64,000 nt of DNA from Pseudomonadota bacterium (GCA_963205175.1 CAUJIW010000084.1:1-64000); one strand, 5' to 3'. Numbered from the stretch's first letter, positions 1-12,300 are shown. Translations and numbers: made by a program. The notes: generated from the letters alone by a model not told the origin.

Positions 1-60
1 ACGGTTGAAGTGTGCAAACTCCACCATAACGATGAACCCGGTGGCCACCAGCGACGCCGC

Positions 61-92
61 ATTCCGGGGTGGGGCATGCCCCACCCCGGAAT
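61..92. repeat. 32-bp perfect palindrome
   Basis: Both halves are exact reverse complements of each other with no loop, centred on GCATGC at 74-79. Each arm carries a G-rich GGGGTGGGG core. It could be a cruciform, a protein-binding dyad or a terminator stem. No T-run follows on either side, which argues against a simple intrinsic terminator. Confidence 0.85.
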
Positions 93-153
93 ACACCATC
101 GCCTACACCGGAAATTACACCACGAGCGCGGACGCTAACACTATGTTTTGCAG

Positions 154-264
154 GGGAACAATGGGAACATGGGAACAAGCTATCTCAAACAGACAGAAAG
201 CCTTGTGTCCTGAGGTCGCCAGCCTGTTCCCAAGCCGTCTGGCCGGTCTGGGAACATGGGAACA
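154..264. repeat. GGGAACA heptamer cluster A (six copies)
   Basis: GGGAACA occurs at 154-160, 163-169, 171-177, 250-256 and 258-264, and its complement TGTTCCC at 225-231. Six copies in 111 bp is far above the roughly eight expected by chance in 64 kb on both strands. Spacers of 1-2 bp within the groups give iteron-like tandem arrays. A matching cluster lies at 5227-5334, beyond the primase/helicase and resolvase. Likely a binding array for a replication, integration or regulatory protein of the element. Confidence 0.75.
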
Positions 265-342
265 GAATTGGCCGATCCCGATGCAGGAAAATCCGCGCGC
301 GTGTGGCTACCCCCTGCCCCCTCCAGCCGGGGAGCGGCGGTA

Positions 343-1218
343 ATGGCGGACGATTCCCAGCCTGATACGGAGGTCGGGCGGAAGCCTTGGGATGCTGATG
401 ATCCGGCAGAGACAGTGCGGCTGGCAATCGGTGTGCTGGCCAAGGGGCTTGGTGAATACGGCCTAGGGATGTCGGGCCAGTTGTCGGCAGCACAGTCGGC
501 CGACGCGCTTGATGCTGCCAGCTCGCTCTTGGGCGGCATCGCGGCGGCGTTGCGGGAGCGGGCGGCAGAGGAACAGGCGGAAGCCGGTGACGACGCGCCA
601 GAGCTGTTATCGCCCGCGATCCGGCAGGCATTCGCCAGGGGCTGCGCGCCTGCCTCGCCCGATGGGCTGGAAAGAGCAATCTGCGATTATCGCCTGGCGC
701 ACGTAGTCGTGCCGCAAATCGGCGCGCCACTGGTTGTTTGGGATGATCCTGCGGCGGGCACCCCTCCACCGTCCGCAGCCGTCCGCGCCGACATTGCGCG
801 TGTTCTCAAGGCCGCCCAAGCATTGCGTGAGACCATGGCGGGCGTTTCAGGCGAGGCGCTTGGGCGAATTAGCGTCGTGGCCTACGAGGCCGGGAAGGGG
901 GCGGGCTTTGCCAGCGCCGCATTCGATCTCACAGGCGAGTTGATAGGCCATGCCGAAGCGGCGCTGGACGAGTTGGGCGACAACGCCAGCCCTGGCCGCA
1001 CAGTTTCCCCCAAGACACGACTGGCCCTGTGGCTGGGCGACTTTCTGGAGGACAGCGGGGTTCCGGTTGTGGTTGACGGCAGGCCCTCTGCCCAATGGGC
1101 TTTGGCCTATGATTTGGCGCTAGAGGCGGCTGGCGGTGGTCCCTGCCAACATGCCCGCAAGACGCTGCAAAACGCGATTGCCCTGCGCCGGAAGGAAAGA
1201 ATGCCCCCAGCCGCCTAG
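343..1218 (+). CDS. Hypothetical protein of the mobile element
   Basis: A 291-residue protein that I do not recognise. The ATG at 343 is chosen because a GGGGAG ribosome-binding stretch lies just upstream and the region before it is repeat-rich. The sequence is soluble, alanine-rich and largely helical in character. It has an acidic N-terminus, no signal peptide, no membrane span and no obvious catalytic motif. It lies immediately before the AlpA-like gene and the DUF927 primase on the same strand, so it is probably cargo or an accessory replication or regulation protein. Codon use is high G+C like the host, so any acquisition came from a similar background. The gene call is fairly safe; the function is unknown. 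Confidence 0.7.
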   Translation: MADDSQPDTEVGRKPWDADDPAETVRLAIGVLAKGLGEYGLGMSGQLSAAQSADALDAASSLLGGIAAALRERAAEEQAEAGDDAPELLSPAIRQAFARGCAPASPDGLERAICDYRLAHVVVPQIGAPLVVWDDPAAGTPPPSAAVRADIARVLKAAQALRETMAGVSGEALGRISVVAYEAGKGAGFASAAFDLTGELIGHAEAALDELGDNASPGRTVSPKTRLALWLGDFLEDSGVPVVVDGRPSAQWALAYDLALEAAGGGPCQHARKTLQNAIALRRKERMPPAA

Positions 1219-1272
1219 GATTGTTCACACGCTCTTGTAGCGCCCAACACAACAGGATGTACATGAATGGCC

Positions 1273-1288
1273 CCCAGTGAAAACTGGG
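1273..1288 (+). promoter_or_regulatory. GNRA-loop hairpin covering the HTH gene's ribosome-binding site
   Basis: CCCAGT and ACTGGG form a 6-bp stem closed by a GAAA tetraloop. The 3' arm supplies most of the GGGAG Shine-Dalgarno sequence of the HTH gene that starts at 1299. When folded, the hairpin would mask that site. The structure is seen in the sequence; the control role is inferred. Confidence 0.45.
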
Positions 1289-1298
1289 AGCCTATGAA

Positions 1299-1484
1299 AT
1301 GAACGACACACTATCGGGCGCGCCTCTCGCCTATTCGATCAAAGAGGCCAGCCGCGCCACGTCGCTGGGGCGGACGCGGCTCTATCAGTTGATTGCCGCC
1401 GGGCGGCTGGAGGCCGTCAAGATCGGCAGCCGGACGTTGATCCCCGCCGATGCCCTGCGCAAGCTGCTGGCGGGCGACCGATGA
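1299..1484 (+). CDS. AlpA/excisionase-type helix-turn-helix protein
   Basis: A 61-residue DNA-binding protein of the HTH_17/MerR-like excisionase class. The family signature runs from YSIKEAS near residue 10, through the recognition helix region (GRTRLYQLIAAG), to the wing strand (KIGSRTLIPADAL). Relatives act as recombination directionality factors or transcriptional activators in integrative elements, such as AlpA of prophage CP4-57. The stop codon overlaps the next start as ATGA at 1481-1484, so translation is coupled to the helper and primase genes. Likely roles are excision or control of the cassette; I cannot separate these from sequence alone. Confidence 0.85.
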   Translation: MNDTLSGAPLAYSIKEASRATSLGRTRLYQLIAAGRLEAVKIGSRTLIPADALRKLLAGDR

Positions 1485-1810
1485 ACGGCGATAGCGGTGC
1501 CGTGCGATCCGGCAGGATTGACTTTGAGCGGGTCAATCGTTCGGCGTTGGCCCTCGCTGCGGCGATCGTGCGGGGCTTGCTGCCCGAAGGGCGGCTGGAG
1601 GGGCACGAATACGTTGCCCGCAACCCGCGCCGCCCTGACAAGCGGCTGGGCAGCTTCAAGGTCAATATCTCCACCGGGCGATGGGCGGACTTCGCCACGG
1701 GCGACGGCGGCGGCGATCTGGTGAGCCTTGCCGCCTTCGTTTCGGGCCTTCCCCAGCGCGAAGCCGCCATTCGGCTGGCGGAATCCATGGGGGTTTCCCC
1801 ATGGGCGTGA
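1481..1810 (+). CDS. Small primase-associated helper protein
   Basis: A 109-residue protein starting inside the ATGA overlap with the HTH gene. Its core (GSFKVNISTGRWADFATG, residues about 57-74) and a C-terminal stretch on repeated use of substrate or template (LPQREAAIRLAESMG) resemble the N-terminal region that precedes Toprim in phage and plasmid primases. No zinc-binding cysteines are present. It overlaps the next gene by 10 bp. The likely reading is that an ancestral primase N-terminus is encoded separately here and works with the DUF927 protein. Moderately sure of the gene, less so of the role. Confidence 0.7.
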   Translation: MNGDSGAVRSGRIDFERVNRSALALAAAIVRGLLPEGRLEGHEYVARNPRRPDKRLGSFKVNISTGRWADFATGDGGGDLVSLAAFVSGLPQREAAIRLAESMGVSPWA

Positions 1811-4452
1811 ACGACAGGCCGGATGATCCCTTTGCCAACGTCTCCAAGTCCATTGCCGCAGCTGACGACTCGCCAGCCGGGGATGTGCCAGAGACGAAAC
1901 GCCCGGGCGCGCCCAAGCCCAAGGGCGACTGGGTGTCCCCGGTGCCCGCCGATGCGCCGGCCGCGCGGACCTCGCACAATCACCATGGCAAGCCCTCTGC
2001 ATCTTGGGCCTATCGCGATGCGGCGGGCAGGACGATCCACTGGGTTTGCCGTTTCGACAAGCCGGACGGGTCCAAGGAAATCCTGCCGCAAACGCTGTGG
2101 CGTGAAGGCGGCCGGTTGGGCTGGCGCTGGGGTGCGCCGCCGGTCCCTCGCCCGCTCTACGGGCTGGACCGGCTGGCCTTGGCTCCAGCCGCGCCCGTGC
2201 TGATCGTGGAGGGCGAAAAGACAGCGGACGCGGCGACAGGTCTGTTTCCGGGGTTCGCGGTGGCGTCATGGTCCGGCGGGTCAAAGTCAGTCAGCAAAGC
2301 CGATTGGGCCGCGCTGGCGCGCCGCAGGGTGGCCATCCTGCCCGACGCCGACACGCCGGGGCGCGAGGCCGCGCAAGCCGTCCGCAAGGCCGCGCTGGCG
2401 GCTAGCGCAGAGGGGGCGGCTATTGTCCAGCTCCCCGCCTCGCTGCCAGCCGCATGGGATTGTGCCGATCCGTTCCCGCCGGGCTTCGCCCAATCGGACC
2501 TGCTGGGGTTGATCGGCGCGGCGCTGGAGGCCGCCAGCACCGGGCGGCTGAAAATGCCGCCGGGCTATACGCTCGATAACGATGGCCTCTATTGGCTGGA
2601 GCCGGGCAAGGATGGCGCGGACGCACGGGCTGTGCGGCTGTCCGATCCATTCGATATCATGGGCGAGGCGCGAGACGGCGATGGTGGCGATTGGGGCCTG
2701 TTGATTCGGTTCCGGGACCGCGACGGGGTGGAAAAGCGCAAGACCGTGAAGCGGGCGGCGCTGGCGTCCGATGCGGGCGCGGTGCGAGCCGAGCTTGCGG
2801 GAGCGGGAATGCTGATCCTCTCCGCGCCGGGCCAGAGAGATCGGTTCATTCGCTTCCTTCGGGAGGTGACGCATAGTGCTCGCCTCACCTTGGCGGAAAG
2901 GACCGGTTGGGTTGATACCAGCCGCTTTGTTCTGCCCCATGCAGTGATAGCGCCGCCTGGCGCGGAGCCGGTGCATTTCGACGGGGCGGCGTCTGCGCTG
3001 CACTATCGGGAAAAGGGCAGTCTGGACGGCTGGAAGCGCGCCCTGGCGGCGCTCGCACCGGGCAACAGCCGGCTCACCTTTGCCATATCTCTGGCCTTTG
3101 TCGGACCAATCATGCGCTGGCTCGATATGGAGGGCGGCGGCTTTCACTTTCGCGGGTCGTCCAGCACCGGCAAAACGTCGCTCGCCATGGCGGCTGGCAG
3201 TGTGTGGGGCGGGGGCGGCGCGCTGGGCTTCGCGTCGAGCTGGCGGGCAACTGGCAACGCCCTGGAGGGCGTCGCTCACGGTCATACCGAAACGCTGCTG
3301 ATCCTTGACGAGCTGGCGCTTGTTGATCCCCAAGAGGCGGGCAATGCCGCCTACGCGCTCGCCAGCGGCCAAGGCAAGGCACGGGCCGGACAGACCGGGG
3401 CCTTGCGCCGCCGGGCAGAATGGCGGGTCATGGTGTGCAGCACCGGGGAAATCGGCCTTGCCGACCACATGAGAACCGCGAAGCGAGGCGAGCGGACGAT
3501 GGCCGGGCAAGAGTTGCGCTTGCTCGATCTGCCGGCCGACGCTGGGGCCGGTTTCGGGGCATGGGAAGCGCTGCACAACATGGCCAGTCCAGCCGCCTTT
3601 TCCGATGCGATCAAGGCGGCCTGCGCCGCCCATTATGGCTATGCTGGGCCTGCCTTCGTGCGCGGCCTTGTTGCTGATCCTGCCCATTGGGAGCGTGAGG
3701 CCAAGCGGCTGGCCGAAGCGTTCGTGGGGAAGGCCAGGCAAGATGGGGATAGCGGGCAGGTGCATCGCGGTGCCTTGCGGTTCGCTGCCGTCGCGGCGGC
3801 TGGCGAGATGGCCATTGCGCTTGGCGTTGTGCCGTGGCGAGCTGGGGAGGCAGAGACGGCGGCGCTTGCTTGCTTCAATGCCTGGGCGGCAGGGTTTGGA
3901 CGCGCTGGCCTGCGAGAGCATCGGCAGATTCTGGAGCGGGTGCGCAACGCCATACAATCCGGGCAGTCCCGCTTTGCCAGTGTGCCAAAGGCCAAGCGGC
4001 AATCGTTCTATGGCGACGATTCGGACGACAGTAACGGGGCGGCGAGCAATCGAGAGGGGGAAGCCCGCTCGCTTTCCACGTGGGGCTATCTGCACGACAT
4101 TGAGCCGGGCAAGTCCTGCTATCTGTTCCACGATAGCGGCTGGAACGAAATCCTTGCCGGTTTCGCTCCGGCGGAAGCGGCAACGGTGCTGCAAGAACAT
4201 GGGTTTCTGGTGCCCGGCGACGGCGGCCGGCTCAAGCGCAAGCAACGTGTCGGGAATCAAAGCCTGCGCTTATACACGGTGCGGGATACCATTCTGGAAT
4301 GGGATGCAAGCGATCTGGCCAAAGCCGTCCCTTCGCCTGCCGACGCTCCAGCCGGGCCGGTAGACTGGCCAATGGATGGTCCAGCCGCGCCGGGTGCGGA
4401 TGATTACGACTACGGCGGAGATCCCTTCGCCGATGATCTGGACGGCTGGTGA
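1801..4452 (+). CDS. Toprim-DUF927 primase/helicase of a mobile element
   Basis: An 883-residue replication protein. The start at 1801 is chosen over the in-frame ATG at 1681 because the upstream gene ends at 1810 and the extra residues are out of family. The N-terminal third has a Toprim-like fold: IVEGEKTAD near residue 140 gives the acidic Glu motif, and LPDADTPG about 40 residues later gives the DxD motif. The C-terminal half is DUF927, with a Walker A loop (GSSSTGKTS, residues about 453-461) and a Walker B-like ILDELALVD. Proteins of this design unwind and prime DNA in satellite phages, plasmids and genomic islands. The TGA overlaps the ATG of a truncated frame that follows, showing the operon once continued. 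Confidence 0.88.
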   Translation: MGVNDRPDDPFANVSKSIAAADDSPAGDVPETKRPGAPKPKGDWVSPVPADAPAARTSHNHHGKPSASWAYRDAAGRTIHWVCRFDKPDGSKEILPQTLWREGGRLGWRWGAPPVPRPLYGLDRLALAPAAPVLIVEGEKTADAATGLFPGFAVASWSGGSKSVSKADWAALARRRVAILPDADTPGREAAQAVRKAALAASAEGAAIVQLPASLPAAWDCADPFPPGFAQSDLLGLIGAALEAASTGRLKMPPGYTLDNDGLYWLEPGKDGADARAVRLSDPFDIMGEARDGDGGDWGLLIRFRDRDGVEKRKTVKRAALASDAGAVRAELAGAGMLILSAPGQRDRFIRFLREVTHSARLTLAERTGWVDTSRFVLPHAVIAPPGAEPVHFDGAASALHYREKGSLDGWKRALAALAPGNSRLTFAISLAFVGPIMRWLDMEGGGFHFRGSSSTGKTSLAMAAGSVWGGGGALGFASSWRATGNALEGVAHGHTETLLILDELALVDPQEAGNAAYALASGQGKARAGQTGALRRRAEWRVMVCSTGEIGLADHMRTAKRGERTMAGQELRLLDLPADAGAGFGAWEALHNMASPAAFSDAIKAACAAHYGYAGPAFVRGLVADPAHWEREAKRLAEAFVGKARQDGDSGQVHRGALRFAAVAAAGEMAIALGVVPWRAGEAETAALACFNAWAAGFGRAGLREHRQILERVRNAIQSGQSRFASVPKAKRQSFYGDDSDDSNGAASNREGEARSLSTWGYLHDIEPGKSCYLFHDSGWNEILAGFAPAEAATVLQEHGFLVPGDGGRLKRKQRVGNQSLRLYTVRDTILEWDASDLAKAVPSPADAPAGPVDWPMDGPAAPGADDYDYGGDPFADDLDGW

Positions 4453-4520
4453 TGGCCGTCCCGGATAGCCCGCCGCAATTCGATCTGTTCGAGGCGCTGT
4501 CCACTAAGGTGCACCCATAG
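4452..4520 (+). pseudogene. Truncated start of the next cassette gene
   Basis: An ATG overlapping the primase stop (TGATG) opens a 22-codon frame (begins MAVPDSPPQFDLFEAL) that ends at TAG 4518-4520. The first 16 residues look like normal coding sequence of the element. The frame then runs into the res-like region of the resolvase module at about 4502. The simplest reading is a gene cut short when the resolvase module inserted. A real leader-size peptide is possible but less likely. Confidence 0.5.
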
Positions 4521-4633
4521 GGAACGTGCACATACATCCTCAAAGATGTTCACTTAGGGTCAAAATGGAATTTAGTTGACACTTGCGAGAGAGGGTCTTA
4601 GACCTTAGTGCACACCGCGAACAGGGATGCACT
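4502..4633 (+). promoter_or_regulatory. Res-like site with embedded resolvase promoter
   Basis: Several dyads lie directly upstream of the resolvase. GTGCAC arms at 4509-4514 and 4526-4531 frame one site, AGTGCA 4607-4612 and TGCACT 4628-4633 frame another, and the 9-bp pair CACTAAGGT 4502-4510 / ACCTTAGTG 4602-4610 encloses the whole. A promoter sits between them: TTGACA 4576-4581, 17 bp, TAGACC 4599-4604. The -10 box touches the last dyad. This arrangement matches res sites of Tn3-type resolvases, where the enzyme represses its own gene. Confidence 0.6.
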
Positions 4634-4636
4634 TCA

Positions 4637-5188
4637 ATGAGCATGATCGGATATGCCCGTGTGTCGACCGCGAGCCAGTCGACCGACATTCAGGTCGAGA
4701 AGCTGAAAGAGGCCGGTTGCAGCGTGATCCGTATGGAGAAGGTTTCCGGTCGCAGCCGCGAAGGTCGGAGTGAGCTGGAAACGGTAATGGACTTCATCCA
4801 AGCCGGCGACACTCTGGTCGTCGCCAAGCTCGACCGCCTCGGACGCTCTACTCGGGACGTGCTCAACCTGGTGCACGAACTGGAGCAGCGCGGAGCCGCC
4901 TTGCGCGTGCTCGAACCCGCCATCGATACCAATGGCCCTATGGGGAAGGTCGTGCTTACCGTCCTTGGCATGGTTTCAGAAATGGAGCTGGGCTTCATTC
5001 GCGAACGGCAGAAAGACGGTATTGAGAAGGCAAAGGCAGAAGGCCGTTACAATGGCCGGCCGGCAACGCTGGACGTTGGTGCAATTCAGAGCATGAAAGC
5101 TGGCGGGCTGGGCGCTACAGAGATCGCCCGCCGCCTGAACTGTTCGCGCAGCGCGGTCTACAAGATTTTGAATGCTACCCCTGCATAG
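4637..5188 (+). CDS. Serine recombinase, Tn3-type resolvase
   Basis: A 183-residue small serine recombinase. The catalytic domain begins MSMIGYARVST, with nucleophile Ser10. It also shows LVVAKLDRLGRS (the conserved DRLGRS motif with its Arg) and the long E-helix near GMVSEMELGFIRERQ. The C-terminal Hin-type HTH is LGATEIARRLNCSRSAVYKIL. Full length is normal for resolvases and invertases. The ATG at 4637 is used rather than an upstream TTG because the family starts exactly here. It cuts and rejoins DNA at paired res sites to resolve cointegrates or dimers. No transposase is nearby, so it is a stand-alone module or a transposon remnant. A 6-bp hairpin (5177-5192) overlaps its stop. Confidence 0.93.
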   Translation: MSMIGYARVSTASQSTDIQVEKLKEAGCSVIRMEKVSGRSREGRSELETVMDFIQAGDTLVVAKLDRLGRSTRDVLNLVHELEQRGAALRVLEPAIDTNGPMGKVVLTVLGMVSEMELGFIRERQKDGIEKAKAEGRYNGRPATLDVGAIQSMKAGGLGATEIARRLNCSRSAVYKILNATPA

Positions 5189-5221
5189 GGGTGTTGGCCG
5201 CCAAACCTGCGTTGAGGGTGT

Positions 5222-5258
5222 AAGGCTGTTCCCAAGTGTTTAGGCCGGGAACAGCCTT
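5222..5258. terminator. 12-bp hairpin after the resolvase
   Basis: AAGGCTGTTCCC (5222-5233) and GGGAACAGCCTT (5247-5258) pair perfectly around a 13-nt loop. The stem contains two copies of the GGGAACA heptamer in inverted order. Only a weak pyrimidine run follows, so it may be a protein-binding dyad rather than a terminator. Confidence 0.45.
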
Positions 5259-5334
5259 CCTCATTCTCGGGAACACGGTTTCACTTATAAAACCAATACG
5301 TTGCCGGTTGTGTTCCCATTTTCCCGCTGTTCCC
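5227..5334. repeat. GGGAACA heptamer cluster B (five copies)
   Basis: TGTTCCC at 5227-5233, 5311-5317 and 5328-5334, and GGGAACA at 5247-5253 and 5269-5275. The motif is the same as in cluster A, about 5 kb upstream, but here the orientations are mixed. The AT-rich stretch 5280-5300 between copies could be an unwinding region. Confidence 0.7.
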
Positions 5335-5449
5335 GACATTTGGAGAGCAACCCAACGACCTAGCGTGCCAGCCGAACCCGGATCGCTCTACAGGTGGGGT
5401 TGGTGCGGCAGCGCTGCCCATAGCTCCCAGTCTACCGTCACTCGAAACA

Positions 5450-5472
5450 TTTGGGGGTATCTTTGGGGGTAT
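5450..5472. repeat. TTTGGGGGTAT tandem repeat, possible element edge
   Basis: Two exact 11-bp copies (5450-5460 and 5462-5472) are separated by one C. Repeats of this look occur beside tyrosine-integrase genes in proteobacterial islands, where they may be arm-type binding sites. No integrase gene is present here. The repeat marks the approximate right limit of the accessory DNA; calling it an attachment region is inference. Confidence 0.4.
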
Positions 5473-5757
5473 GTACAAAAGGATGCGCGAGGGGAGTGGC
5501 TGAAATTAGCTATTATCATGGCGCTTTACGATTCCCATCACCCAGCCGCTTCCTTCCCCCCTGCCTGTGCGCCCGACCCGTTGGCCCACCGTGATCGTGA
5601 CGACGACATGGGTGGCGGAGAATGTGGTGTGCTGCTTGACGTGGCGCAATCGGTCCGGCGAGCGACCGCGATAGGATGCCCTCATGAACGCCGGCCCTGA
5701 GCGCCTGCCCGCCCCGCCGGGCGGACGCGACGGCTGACGCCAAGGAAGGAGCTGCCC

Positions 5758-6834
5758 ATGACCCGCATGATGAAGGCCGCCATCTTTGCCGAACCCGGCC
5801 GGATCGTGCTCGATGACAAGCCCGTGCCCGATGTCGGCCCGCTCGACGCGCTGGTTCGGATCACCACCACCACCATTTGCGGTACCGACGTGCACATCCT
5901 CAAGGGCGAGTATCCCGTGGCCCGGGGGTTGACCATTGGCCATGAGCCGGTGGGGGTGATCGAGAAGCTGGGGTCCGCCGTGGTCGGATATCAGGAAGGT
6001 CAGCGGGTGATCGCCGGCGCGATCACTCCCAGCGGCCACAGTGCCGCCTGCCTGTGTGGCTGTCACTCGCAGGACGGCGCGGGCACCCGCCACGGCTTCA
6101 AAGCCCTGGGCGGCTGGCGCTTCGGCAACACCATCGACGGGGCACAGGCGGAATATCTGCTGGTGCCCGACGCGATGACCAACCTGGCGCCGATTCCCGA
6201 CGCACTGAGCGATGAGCAGGTGCTGATGTGCCCCGACATCATGTCCACCGGCTTTTCCGGCGCCGAGAGCGGGCAGGTGAAGATCGGCGACACCGTGGCC
6301 GTTTTCGCCCAGGGGCCGATCGGTCTTTGTGCCACTGCCGGCGCCCGGCTGATGGGCGCCACCCGTATCATCGTGGTCGATGCCGTACCGGCCCGGCTGG
6401 CCATCGCCAGGCAGATGGGCGCCGACGAGACGGTGGATTTCAGTCGTGTCGACGTGGTCGACGAGATCATGCGTCTGACAGACGGACGCGGTGTCGACGT
6501 CGCCATCGAGGCGTTGGGACGTCAGGCGACCTTCGAGGCAGCGCTGCGGGTGTTGCGGCCCGGCGGCACGCTGTCCTCGCTGGGCGTCTATTCCAGCGAT
6601 CTGACCATCCCGCTCGATGCCTTCCGGGCGGGGCTGGGCGACAACAAGATCGTCACCACCCTGTGTCCTGGCGGCAAGGAGCGGATGCGCCGTCTGATGG
6701 CGGTGATCGCCGCCGAGCGTCTCGACACCCGCCCGCTGGTGACGCATCGCTTCAAGCTCGACGACATCGAGGTCGCCTACGACCTGTTCGCCCATCAGCG
6801 CGACGGCGTGTTGAAGATCGCCATCACACCGTGA
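5758..6834 (+). CDS. Zinc-dependent alcohol dehydrogenase
   Basis: A 358-residue medium-chain dehydrogenase close to the secondary-alcohol (isopropanol) dehydrogenase branch. It interconverts alcohols and ketones or aldehydes with NAD(P). The GroES-like half shows TICGTDVH (catalytic zinc Cys) and GHEPVGVIEKLG (His-Glu motif). A cysteine-containing segment (ACLCGC) follows, as in that branch. The Rossmann half starts near VAVFAQGPIGLCA with its glycine motif, and IIVVDAV ends the second strand. The start follows a strong AAGGAGG-like site. It is the first chromosomal gene after the accessory block, stands alone and converges on ahpF across a terminator. The exact substrate cannot be told from sequence. 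Confidence 0.88.
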   Translation: MTRMMKAAIFAEPGRIVLDDKPVPDVGPLDALVRITTTTICGTDVHILKGEYPVARGLTIGHEPVGVIEKLGSAVVGYQEGQRVIAGAITPSGHSAACLCGCHSQDGAGTRHGFKALGGWRFGNTIDGAQAEYLLVPDAMTNLAPIPDALSDEQVLMCPDIMSTGFSGAESGQVKIGDTVAVFAQGPIGLCATAGARLMGATRIIVVDAVPARLAIARQMGADETVDFSRVDVVDEIMRLTDGRGVDVAIEALGRQATFEAALRVLRPGGTLSSLGVYSSDLTIPLDAFRAGLGDNKIVTTLCPGGKERMRRLMAVIAAERLDTRPLVTHRFKLDDIEVAYDLFAHQRDGVLKIAITP

Positions 6835-9368: not shown

Positions 9369-12300
9369 TTATTCCGCCGGGTTGGCGGCCGGCCGGCCGG
9401 CACCCACGGTCGCGGTGCGTGGCCGGTGATCGGCGGCGAGATAGGAATATACCACCGGCACGATAAACAGGGTGAACAGGGTGCCGATGGTCATGCCGCT
9501 GGCAATGACCAGGCCCATGGAAAACCGGCTGACCGCGCCGGCGCCGCCGGCCAGCAGCAGTGGCATCACGCCCGCCACCATGGCGGCGGTCGTCATGAGG
9601 ATCGGCCGCAGGCGGATGGCGGCCGCCTCGACGATCGCGGCCCGCTTCTCCAGCCCGCGGGTTGCTTGCAGTTCGTTGGCGAAGGACACCATCAGGATGC
9701 CGTGTTTGGAGATCAGGCCCGCCAGAGTCAGCAGGCCGATCTGCGTGTAGATATTGATCGAGAAGCCGCTTGGCTGCGTCGGCCAGATACTGCCGATGTT
9801 GAGCACGAACAGGGCGCCGCACACCGACATCGGTACCGAAACCAGCACGATGATCGGGTCCCGGAAGCTTTCATACTGCGCTGCCAGTACCAGGAAGATG
9901 ATGATGAGCGCGAAAACGAACGCTGTGGCCAGCGTCGCGCCCTCCTGCTTGAACTGGCGGCTTTCGCCCGCATAGTCGTAGGTGAAGCCCTCCGGCAGCA
10001 TGGTCTTGGCCTTGGTTTCCAGGAACTCCAGCACCTCGCCCTGGGTGCGGCCGGGGAAGGGGACACCCGACAGGGTGGCGGAATTGAGCTGCTGGAAGGT
10101 CTTGAGGCCGTTGGGCTGGATCGAACGGCTGACGGTGACGAACGTCGACAGCGGGATCAGGTCGCCGCTGGCCGCGCGCACATAGTAGCTGCCCAGCAGC
10201 TCGGCATTGACGCGATAGCTGCGCGGCACCTGCGGGATGACACGATAGCTGCGGCCCTCAAGGTCGAACAGATTGACGTAGTTGCCGCCCAGCAGCGTCG
10301 ACAGCGTGTTGCCGATGTCGGCCATGCTGACGCCGAGCTGGTTGGCCTTGGCGCGGTCAATGCGGATGTCGACCTGCGGCTTGTCAAAGCGCAGGTCGAT
10401 GTCGGAGAAGATGAACAGCCCGCTCTTGTCGGCTTCAGCCTGCAACTGGTCCACCACCTTGGAGAGCGTGTCGTAACTCTCCAGCGTCTGGATGACGAAC
10501 TGTACCGGCATGCCGCCACCGCCCGGCGTCGGCAGGGACGGAACGTTGAACACCGATGCCTGGACACCGGGCAGCTCGCGCAGCTTCGCCTGAAGCTCGG
10601 GCACAATCTCCTTGGGGCCGCGATCGCGTTCTTCCCAGGGCTTGGTCAGGAAGCCGCCGAAGCCCTGGGCGCCGCCTACGCCATTGATCATGAAGGTGGC
10701 CTGATATTCCGGGAAGGTCTTGAAGATCGGATGAAACTGCTCGGCATAGGTGTCGAGATAGTCCAGCGTCACCGATTCCGGTGCTCGCCACAGCATGAAC
10801 AGGAAGCCCTGATCCTCGTCGGGCGCCAGTTCCTTGCGGGTGGCGTCGTAGAACATCACGCATCCGCCCAGCACCACCGCGCCCAGCACCAGCAGGGTGC
10901 GGCGGGCGCGCAGCGCCTGTTCCAGCACGCGGGCATAGCCGTCGTGCAATCGCTCGAAGCGTTCATCGAGCCAGCGGGCGAAACTGCCCTGGCTCGCCTG
11001 GCCGGCGTGGGGGCGCAGGATCCTGGCGCACATCATCGGCGACAGTGTCAGGGCGACGATGCCGGAGATGATCACCGCCGCCGCCAGCGTGAAGGCGAAC
11101 TCCTGGAACAGAATGCCGGTCAGGCCGGAAACGAAGCCGATTGGCGCATAGACCGCGGCCAGCGTGACGGTCATGCCGATCACCGGCAGGGCGATCTCGC
11201 GGGCGCCCTGCAGGGCCGCCTTGTAGGGCGTCATCCCCTCCTCGATGTGGCGGGAGATGTTCTCGACGACGACGATGGCGTCGTCGACGACGAGGCCAAT
11301 GGCTAGCACCAACGCCAGCAATGTCAGCAGGTTGATGGAGTAGCCGAGCACTTGCAGCAGGAACAGCACGCCGATCAGCGACAGCGGGATGGTGACGATC
11401 GGAATCAGCGTCGAGCGCACGTTGCCAAGGAACAGATAAACGATGACGATGACGATCAGCGCCGCTTCGGCGACGGTCTTCACCACCTCAAGAATCGCGC
11501 TGCGGATATACTCGGTGGCGTCGTAGTTGATCTCGATGTTGAGGCCCTTGGGGGCCTGCTGCTTCAGTTGCGCCACGACTTCCCGTACCTTGGGAATGAC
11601 CGACAGCGCGTTGGAGGACGGCGTGTTCTGGATCTCGATGAACACCGCGCGCTCGCCGGTGGCGAACGCGGAGAAATCGTTGGACTCCGGCCCGAGGTCC
11701 AGTTCGGCGACGTCGCGCAGGCGCACCAGCGCGCCATCGCGCGATGCCACGACCAGTTGGGCGAACTCCTCGACACTCGCGAGGTCGGTCTTGGCGTCGA
11801 TGGTCGCCTTGACGTACTGCCCCTTCATCTCGCCCGGCGCGGCGGTGAAGTTGTTGGCCTCCAGCGCCTGACGCACGTCGGTCGCCGTCACGCCCAGCGC
11901 CGCCATGCGGTCGGGCTTAAGCCACACACGCATGGAGAAGGTCTGGGCACCGAGAATATTGGCCTTGGCGACGCCATCGACCGTCTGCAGCGCCGGCTGC
12001 ACCACCCGGGTCAGATAGTCGGTGATCTGGGCGGGGTTCAGCACCTTGCTGGAGAAGTCGATGTACATGATCCCGTTGCCCTCGCTGGACTCGCGGGTCA
12101 CGGTGGGATCGAAGGCCTCGCGCGGCAGTTCGCTGCGCACCTGGTTGACCTTGGACATGGCGTCGGTCACGGCGCGATCGGCATCGGCGCCAAGGCGCAA
12201 CTGGAGCGTGACTTCACTGAACCCCTGGCTGGACGACGAGCTGATGGTGTCCACGCCCTCGGTGCCGGCGACGGCCTGCTGGATCTTGGTGGTGATGAAG

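Follow-up and report, generated by a model that had tools for sequence, protein, structure and literature searches.

The window analyzed here, a stretch of 64,000 nucleotides from a Pseudomonadota bacterium, raises the question of why a gene for a DUF927 primase-helicase should be enclosed by two clusters of one heptamer, GGGAACA. A sequence-only reading had counted six copies upstream and five downstream, which suggested a two-part origin of a self-replicating satellite or island, comparable with the ori and crr regions of satellite phage P4. Recounting the coordinates bears out both clusters. The left array (154–264) holds GGGAACA at +154, +163, +171, −225, +250, and +258, the sign giving the strand, and the right array (5227–5334) holds it at −5227, +5247, +5269, −5311, and −5328; a degenerate copy, TTTTCCC, at 5319–5325 brings the right array to six as well. 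Read along the DUF927 gene, the spacing is +9+8+54−25+8+ upstream and −20+22+42−17− downstream, with unequal central gaps (54 vs 42). The window contains 21 copies on both strands, compared with a mean of 6.3 and a maximum of 12 in shuffled sequence, and the ten copies in the remaining 58.7 kb are scattered. In a blind search of positions 1–6000 for clustered 7-mers, the two arrays were the top matches (6 and 5 copies), and shuffles reached at most 4. The pattern GGGAACA-N(0–3)-GGGAACA has three matches in the 3.39-Mb genome, all in the left array, and its reversed control has none in the same 3.39 Mb. The genome-wide count of the heptamer, which had been proposed as a check, revealed no clustering elsewhere.

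The features of the island are the following.

1–139, no strand: insertion sequence end, 14 bp left of the first array, truncating the integrase side of the island
154–264, plus strand: left iteron array, upstream, ori-like; three iterons, a 54-bp gap, the reversed iteron at 225, a 25-bp gap, two iterons
343–1218, plus strand: ORF with no family assigned, conserved in L004 and L005, divergent in L006 and L007
1299–1484, plus strand: AlpA/excisionase-like HTH_17 protein of 61 aa (Pfam HTH_17, 1.8e-9; TIGR01764 excise, 6.4e-10)
1481–1810, plus strand: 109-aa protein matching the N-terminal part of the primase-like family NF005477 (profile positions 18–97)
1804–4452, plus strand: 882-aa protein with a TOPRIM primase, a DUF927 helicase (6.1e-68), and a C-terminal winged-helix-like domain
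4637–5188, plus strand: serine resolvase/invertase (Pfam Resolvase, 2.1e-40), carried as cargo after the replication gene and before the right array
5227–5334, minus strand: right iteron array, downstream, crr-like; −5227 (20) +5247 (22) +5269 (42) −5311 (degenerate −5319) −5328
5447–5472, plus strand: direct repeats TTTGGGGGTATCTTTGGGGGTATG, probable integrase arm sites, in relatives also found near the integrase start and the right end
5529–5543, plus strand: possible right attachment site GATTCCCATCACCCA, similar to the 3' end of a tRNA-Gly; it follows the arm repeats by about 57 bp, a distance also seen in L005 and L006

Positions 1–139 recur at least 14 more times in the genome at 99–100% identity, in many cases at contig ends. 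The matches stop at 139–141, and homology to related islands starts at 141–143. Because the insertion sequence has cut the integrase side, the window, which starts at the contig start, shows no integrase; a search of the genome for the lost integrase end found only a 51% integrase, on another contig. The end of this high-copy insertion sequence, in which many contigs of the assembly terminate, also contains a 32-bp perfect palindrome at 61–92. At the right end, the attachment site GATTCCCATCACCCA is a weak call because a search of the genome did not find the exact tRNA-Gly arm/attachment sequence TTCGATTCCCATCACCC. With the ATG at 343 as the start of the first ORF, the left array is intergenic; this ORF has no match in Pfam, NCBIfam, PHROG, or PADLOC. 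Successive parts of the NF005477 model are matched by the 109-aa protein and, at positions 126–296, by the first portion of the DUF927 protein. No capsid or terminase gene was found in the window island.

The same DUF927 gene is present at 78–92% identity in five contigs, L004 and four Novosphingobium/Croceicoccus loci. Loss of the arrays from islands that keep the gene had been named as grounds for abandoning the origin reading; the related islands keep the arrays too, both of them in L004–L007 and the right one in L008, where the left side is cut away. When the islands are aligned without gaps, 40 of the 42 iteron positions of the left array are invariant vs 22 of 74 spacer positions (five islands), and for the right array the counts are 36 of 42 and 14 of 69 (six islands). 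The letters and spacing of the motif are thus constant across related islands, whereas the spacers drift. Gene order in the relatives runs from tRNA-Gly through a P4-type integrase (Arm-DNA-bind_3), the left array, the ORF, AlpA, the 109-aa protein, and TOPRIM-DUF927 to variable cargo, the right array, TTTGGGGGTAT repeats, and the attachment end. The cargo slot between DUF927 and the right array differs by island (a resolvase, a GmrSD-like nuclease, an HTH protein, unknowns), and the right array stays; the resolvase is common to the window and L007 (homology 4498–5375) and absent from L005 and L006. In L004, the cargo before the right array (9784–10929) carries a GmrSD_N domain and matches PADLOC NsnA and PD-T4-2_A, which marks the slot as a likely defense slot. 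The right-end region (window 5000–5800) had no match in plasmids. The arrays are conserved backbone parts of an integrative island and enclose its primase-helicase.

What could read these arrays? Over residues ~250–835, an AlphaFold model of the DUF927 protein (22 sequences, mean pLDDT 80.5) resembles SCCmec Cch (5DGK, Z 30.7) and the SaPIbov1 Rep initiator (8TCH, Z 28.2), and residues 47–243 match DnaG-type TOPRIM domains. The C-terminal 118 residues, folded alone, best match residues 472–556 of SaPIbov1 Rep (8TCH, Z 8.4); next comes the pCW3 relaxosome accessory protein, also solved bound to oriT DNA. The P4 origin-binding domain (1KA8) was absent among the structural matches of the C-terminal domain, and kinship with it is still conceivable. 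Judged by its model, the DUF927 protein is a helicase of the SaPIbov1-Rep/Cch type, with an MCM-like AAA+ fold and a C-terminal DNA-binding domain. Cch, itself a DUF927 protein, is related to SaPIbov1 Rep, and SaPI Rep recognizes iterons downstream of its own gene through its C-terminal domain (PMC7581432). We had considered covariation between heptamer and C-terminal domain as proof of recognition and dropped it: heptamer similarity tracks this domain too weakly (rho 0.16) and no better than it tracks the helicase core (partial 0.086 vs 0.091). Because of this weak covariation, iteron recognition by the C-terminal domain rests on the SaPI precedent.

The association of gene and array extends well beyond the close relatives. 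In a genome of the same family (G053), a DUF927 gene of 41% identity lies in another island, ordered integrase, array (+9+9+43−24+10+), HTH gene, DUF927, fused prohead protease/capsid, large terminase, array, tRNA-Arg. Since a protein search yielded the gene and a pattern search the arrays, the association in this island is independent. The stretch read (L054, 12802–16975) includes the fused prohead protease/capsid and the large terminase and no tail genes; among the distant relatives, capsid or terminase genes were found in L054, L220, and L222. The G053 island is a candidate capsid-forming satellite, and L220 and L222 are similar candidates.

DUF927 loci were then drawn from 385 genomes of the class, from plasmid records, and from viral contigs, and each was searched blind for arrays. 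In viral contigs, a single-sequence search found no close DUF927 relatives, and an alignment query was needed to reach DUF927 loci. Arrays of at least five copies on both strands were found in 56 of 77 non-redundant loci vs 1 of 385 shuffles, and arrays of at least six copies in 38 of 77 vs 0 of 385; the other 21 loci gave no array, some of them because their contigs are short. The heptamer varies by element (GGTGGTA, GGTGCTA, GGTAACA, TGGGACA, GTGTAAC, AGCTGGG, and others), and despite this change a layout of +9+9+(33–58)−(~20)+9+ recurs. The array starts no more than 700 bp downstream of the DUF927 stop in 40 of 73 cases vs 5.3% expected (p 9e-32), and the central gap is AT-rich (0.53 vs 0.45 in the flanks and 0.41 overall). 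Most elements have a single array, just downstream of the gene. One genome (G088 C1) carries two DUF927 element copies with GGTGTTC arrays (L056 and L057), one of them at the very start of a contig.

In viral contigs, GGGAACA arrays of related layout are also found beside VapE, Prim-Pol/AAA_25, and other helicases. The motif is therefore not specific to DUF927, and the origin type is wider than that family. In L180 (2104–2293) and L181 (2852–3039), GGGAAC arrays adjoin VapE-domain primase-helicases, which suggests the same origin layout with a different helicase family. A phage-like contig (L055, 9347–9614) has two back-to-back arrays, GTTCCCA/GGGAAC(G/A), directly after a 642-aa primase-like protein that has no Pfam match.

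A second array of the same heptamer was found in 17 of the 56 array-bearing loci, compared with 0 of 56 when shuffled, and is mostly a mirror image of the first. Weak cases among the 17 are L048, a near-duplicated record, and L049 and L227, which are off-layout. L048 is plasmid pMaqPC2 (38,021 bp), in which most genes, arrays included, are repeated ~19.4 kb apart; it is probably a dimer or an assembly duplication of one DUF927 plasmid or phage. Of eleven pairs that follow the layout, seven show central gaps that differ by no more than 1 bp (57/58, 37/37, 34/34, 35/35, and 48/48, for example), with a permutation p of 0.001 that is indicative only because the eleven pairs were picked by hand. 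That arrays separated by kilobases have equal gaps suggests that both are read by the same protein assembly.

The arrays are almost certainly replication sites, predicted to be bound by the initiator, and the island is very probably an integrative element with its own replication module, consisting of a DUF927 initiator and paired iteron arrays. Self-replication and a satellite nature are inferred, and the window copy has lost its integrase end. By analogy with SaPI Rep, the C-terminal domain of the initiator would bind the GGGAACA iterons. Initiator hexamers would load at the array on either side of the AT-rich gap, the DNA in the gap would melt, and the TOPRIM half of the protein would prime synthesis. 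The second array would most likely work like P4 crr, as an extra cis site contacted by the same initiator, serving either joint firing or copy control by looping or handcuffing.

The most serious competitor, although we consider it unlikely, is that a single origin is at work, the downstream one as in PICIs and SaPIs, and that the other array is a duplicate for negative control or incompatibility. The PICI ori is located 3' of rep (PMC6092414), and the prevalence of a lone downstream array among DUF927 elements fits this proposal. However, conservation in the window family is strong for both arrays, and several other elements have two full mirror-image layouts. Sites for the AlpA-like excisionase or another island regulator, acting at the operon promoter on the left and in excision at the attachment end on the right, are improbable. 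The left array does lie in the promoter region of the operon and the right one near the attachment end, and AlpA-like proteins regulate PICI genes (PMC10111431). Against such a role, arrays in other DUF927 elements hug the 3' end of the DUF927 gene, those of L055 directly follow a primase-like gene in a phage-like contig, and the equivalent arrays of P4 are annotated as type 1 repeats in ori and crr, apart from the attP arm repeats.

More doubtful still, and in our judgment very unlikely, is that the island is a true relative of P4 with a diverged alpha protein as initiator. The likeness to P4 is considerable: two separated arrays flank a primase-helicase with gaps of ~43 and ~20 bp, ori/crr repeat spacing is near-identical, and the order ori, vis/AlpA, alpha/helicase, crr, attP, int is shared, with crr adjoining the attachment site. 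With GGTGAACA taken as plus and alpha setting the reading direction, the ori of P4 runs −10−43+22−11−10− and each crr unit +14−18−43+9+. In an 11.7-kb viral contig (L150, 4828–7692), moreover, a Zn ribbon and Toprim_3, both matching P4 alpha, are joined to a DUF927 helicase beside two GGGAACA arrays, and the contig has an integrase; this chimera possibly bridges P4-type and SaPI-type replicases. BLAST detects no similarity between the DUF927 protein and alpha (best E 2.3). The DUF927 protein does not carry the alpha domain set (Zn ribbon, Toprim_3, D5_N, and Pox_D5) and has a helicase non-homologous to the D5/SF3 helicase of P4, lacking D5/Pox_D5 domains in Pfam; its structural match to SaPIbov1 Rep and Cch also speaks against kinship. 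P4 crr is a doubled 120-bp unit, the P4 octamer GGTGAACA differs from the heptamer, and every window repeat points opposite to those of P4. Because the initiator is of the SaPI/PICI type and repeat polarity is opposite, the island is not a P4 relative. The P4-like two-part layout proposed earlier thus stands in position, spacing, and flanking arrays and not in kinship. The shared GAACA core, offered as a link to P4, has no weight because the repeats run opposite to those of P4 and the heptamer varies freely among DUF927 elements. Chance or low-complexity clustering is a negligible prospect, contradicted by the shuffles, the genome-wide count, the conservation of the arrays, and their independent recurrence in distant elements.

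Returning to paired arrays around a DUF927 initiator, we propose tentatively, with slightly less than even confidence, that a widespread class of mobile elements (PICI-like and capsid-carrying islands, small plasmids, and phage-like elements) surrounds a single SaPI-type initiator with iteron origins in pairs, mirror images for the most part, and that the layout persists although the iteron letters, and even the family of the helicase, change. If so, P4 ori/crr would be an example of a general design of two-site origins and not a P4 oddity. The mirror-image pairs with matched gaps make a concrete, testable argument for initiation at two sites, or for copy control, in satellites, and they connect the P4 and SaPI models of replication. 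A large, barely annotated island group, in which the key gene still goes by the name of a domain of unknown function, gains candidate origins and an initiator, and the layout offers a way to find the origins of DUF927 elements and to set the elements' boundaries. Two-array origins in DUF927 elements may already have been described beyond the open-access literature checked here.

Among known systems, the nearest are the pri-rep-ori modules of Gram-negative PICIs and SaPIs (SaPIbov1 Rep; EcCICFT073), with which the island shares the SaPIbov1 Rep/Cch fold, an integrase, an AlpA-like gene, and an origin with iteron sets on both sides of an AT-rich gap, in most cases beyond the 3' end of rep. In Gram-negative PICIs, the origin is an AT-rich region with one set of iterons to each side, and one pri-rep-ori proved functional when placed on a plasmid (PMC6092414); the same arrangement near rep is found here. 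Integrase, AlpA, and primase-rep in one direction, a Gram-negative PICI feature, are present in L004–L007, and in the window the integrase side is cut. The differences are that there are two arrays here, upstream and downstream of the operon and mirror-oriented in most paired elements, and that the primase is a fused TOPRIM (DnaG) type, whereas SaPI primases are of the AEP type (PMC7581432). SCCmec Cch, also a DUF927 protein, is the closest solved helicase, and Cch2 binds direct repeats downstream of its own gene through its C-terminal domain (PMC7581432), but SCC elements use serine recombinases, and Cch2 has just one putative origin, of three iterons. The island is, as far as its sequence tells, P4-like in its working and SaPI/PICI-like in its descent.
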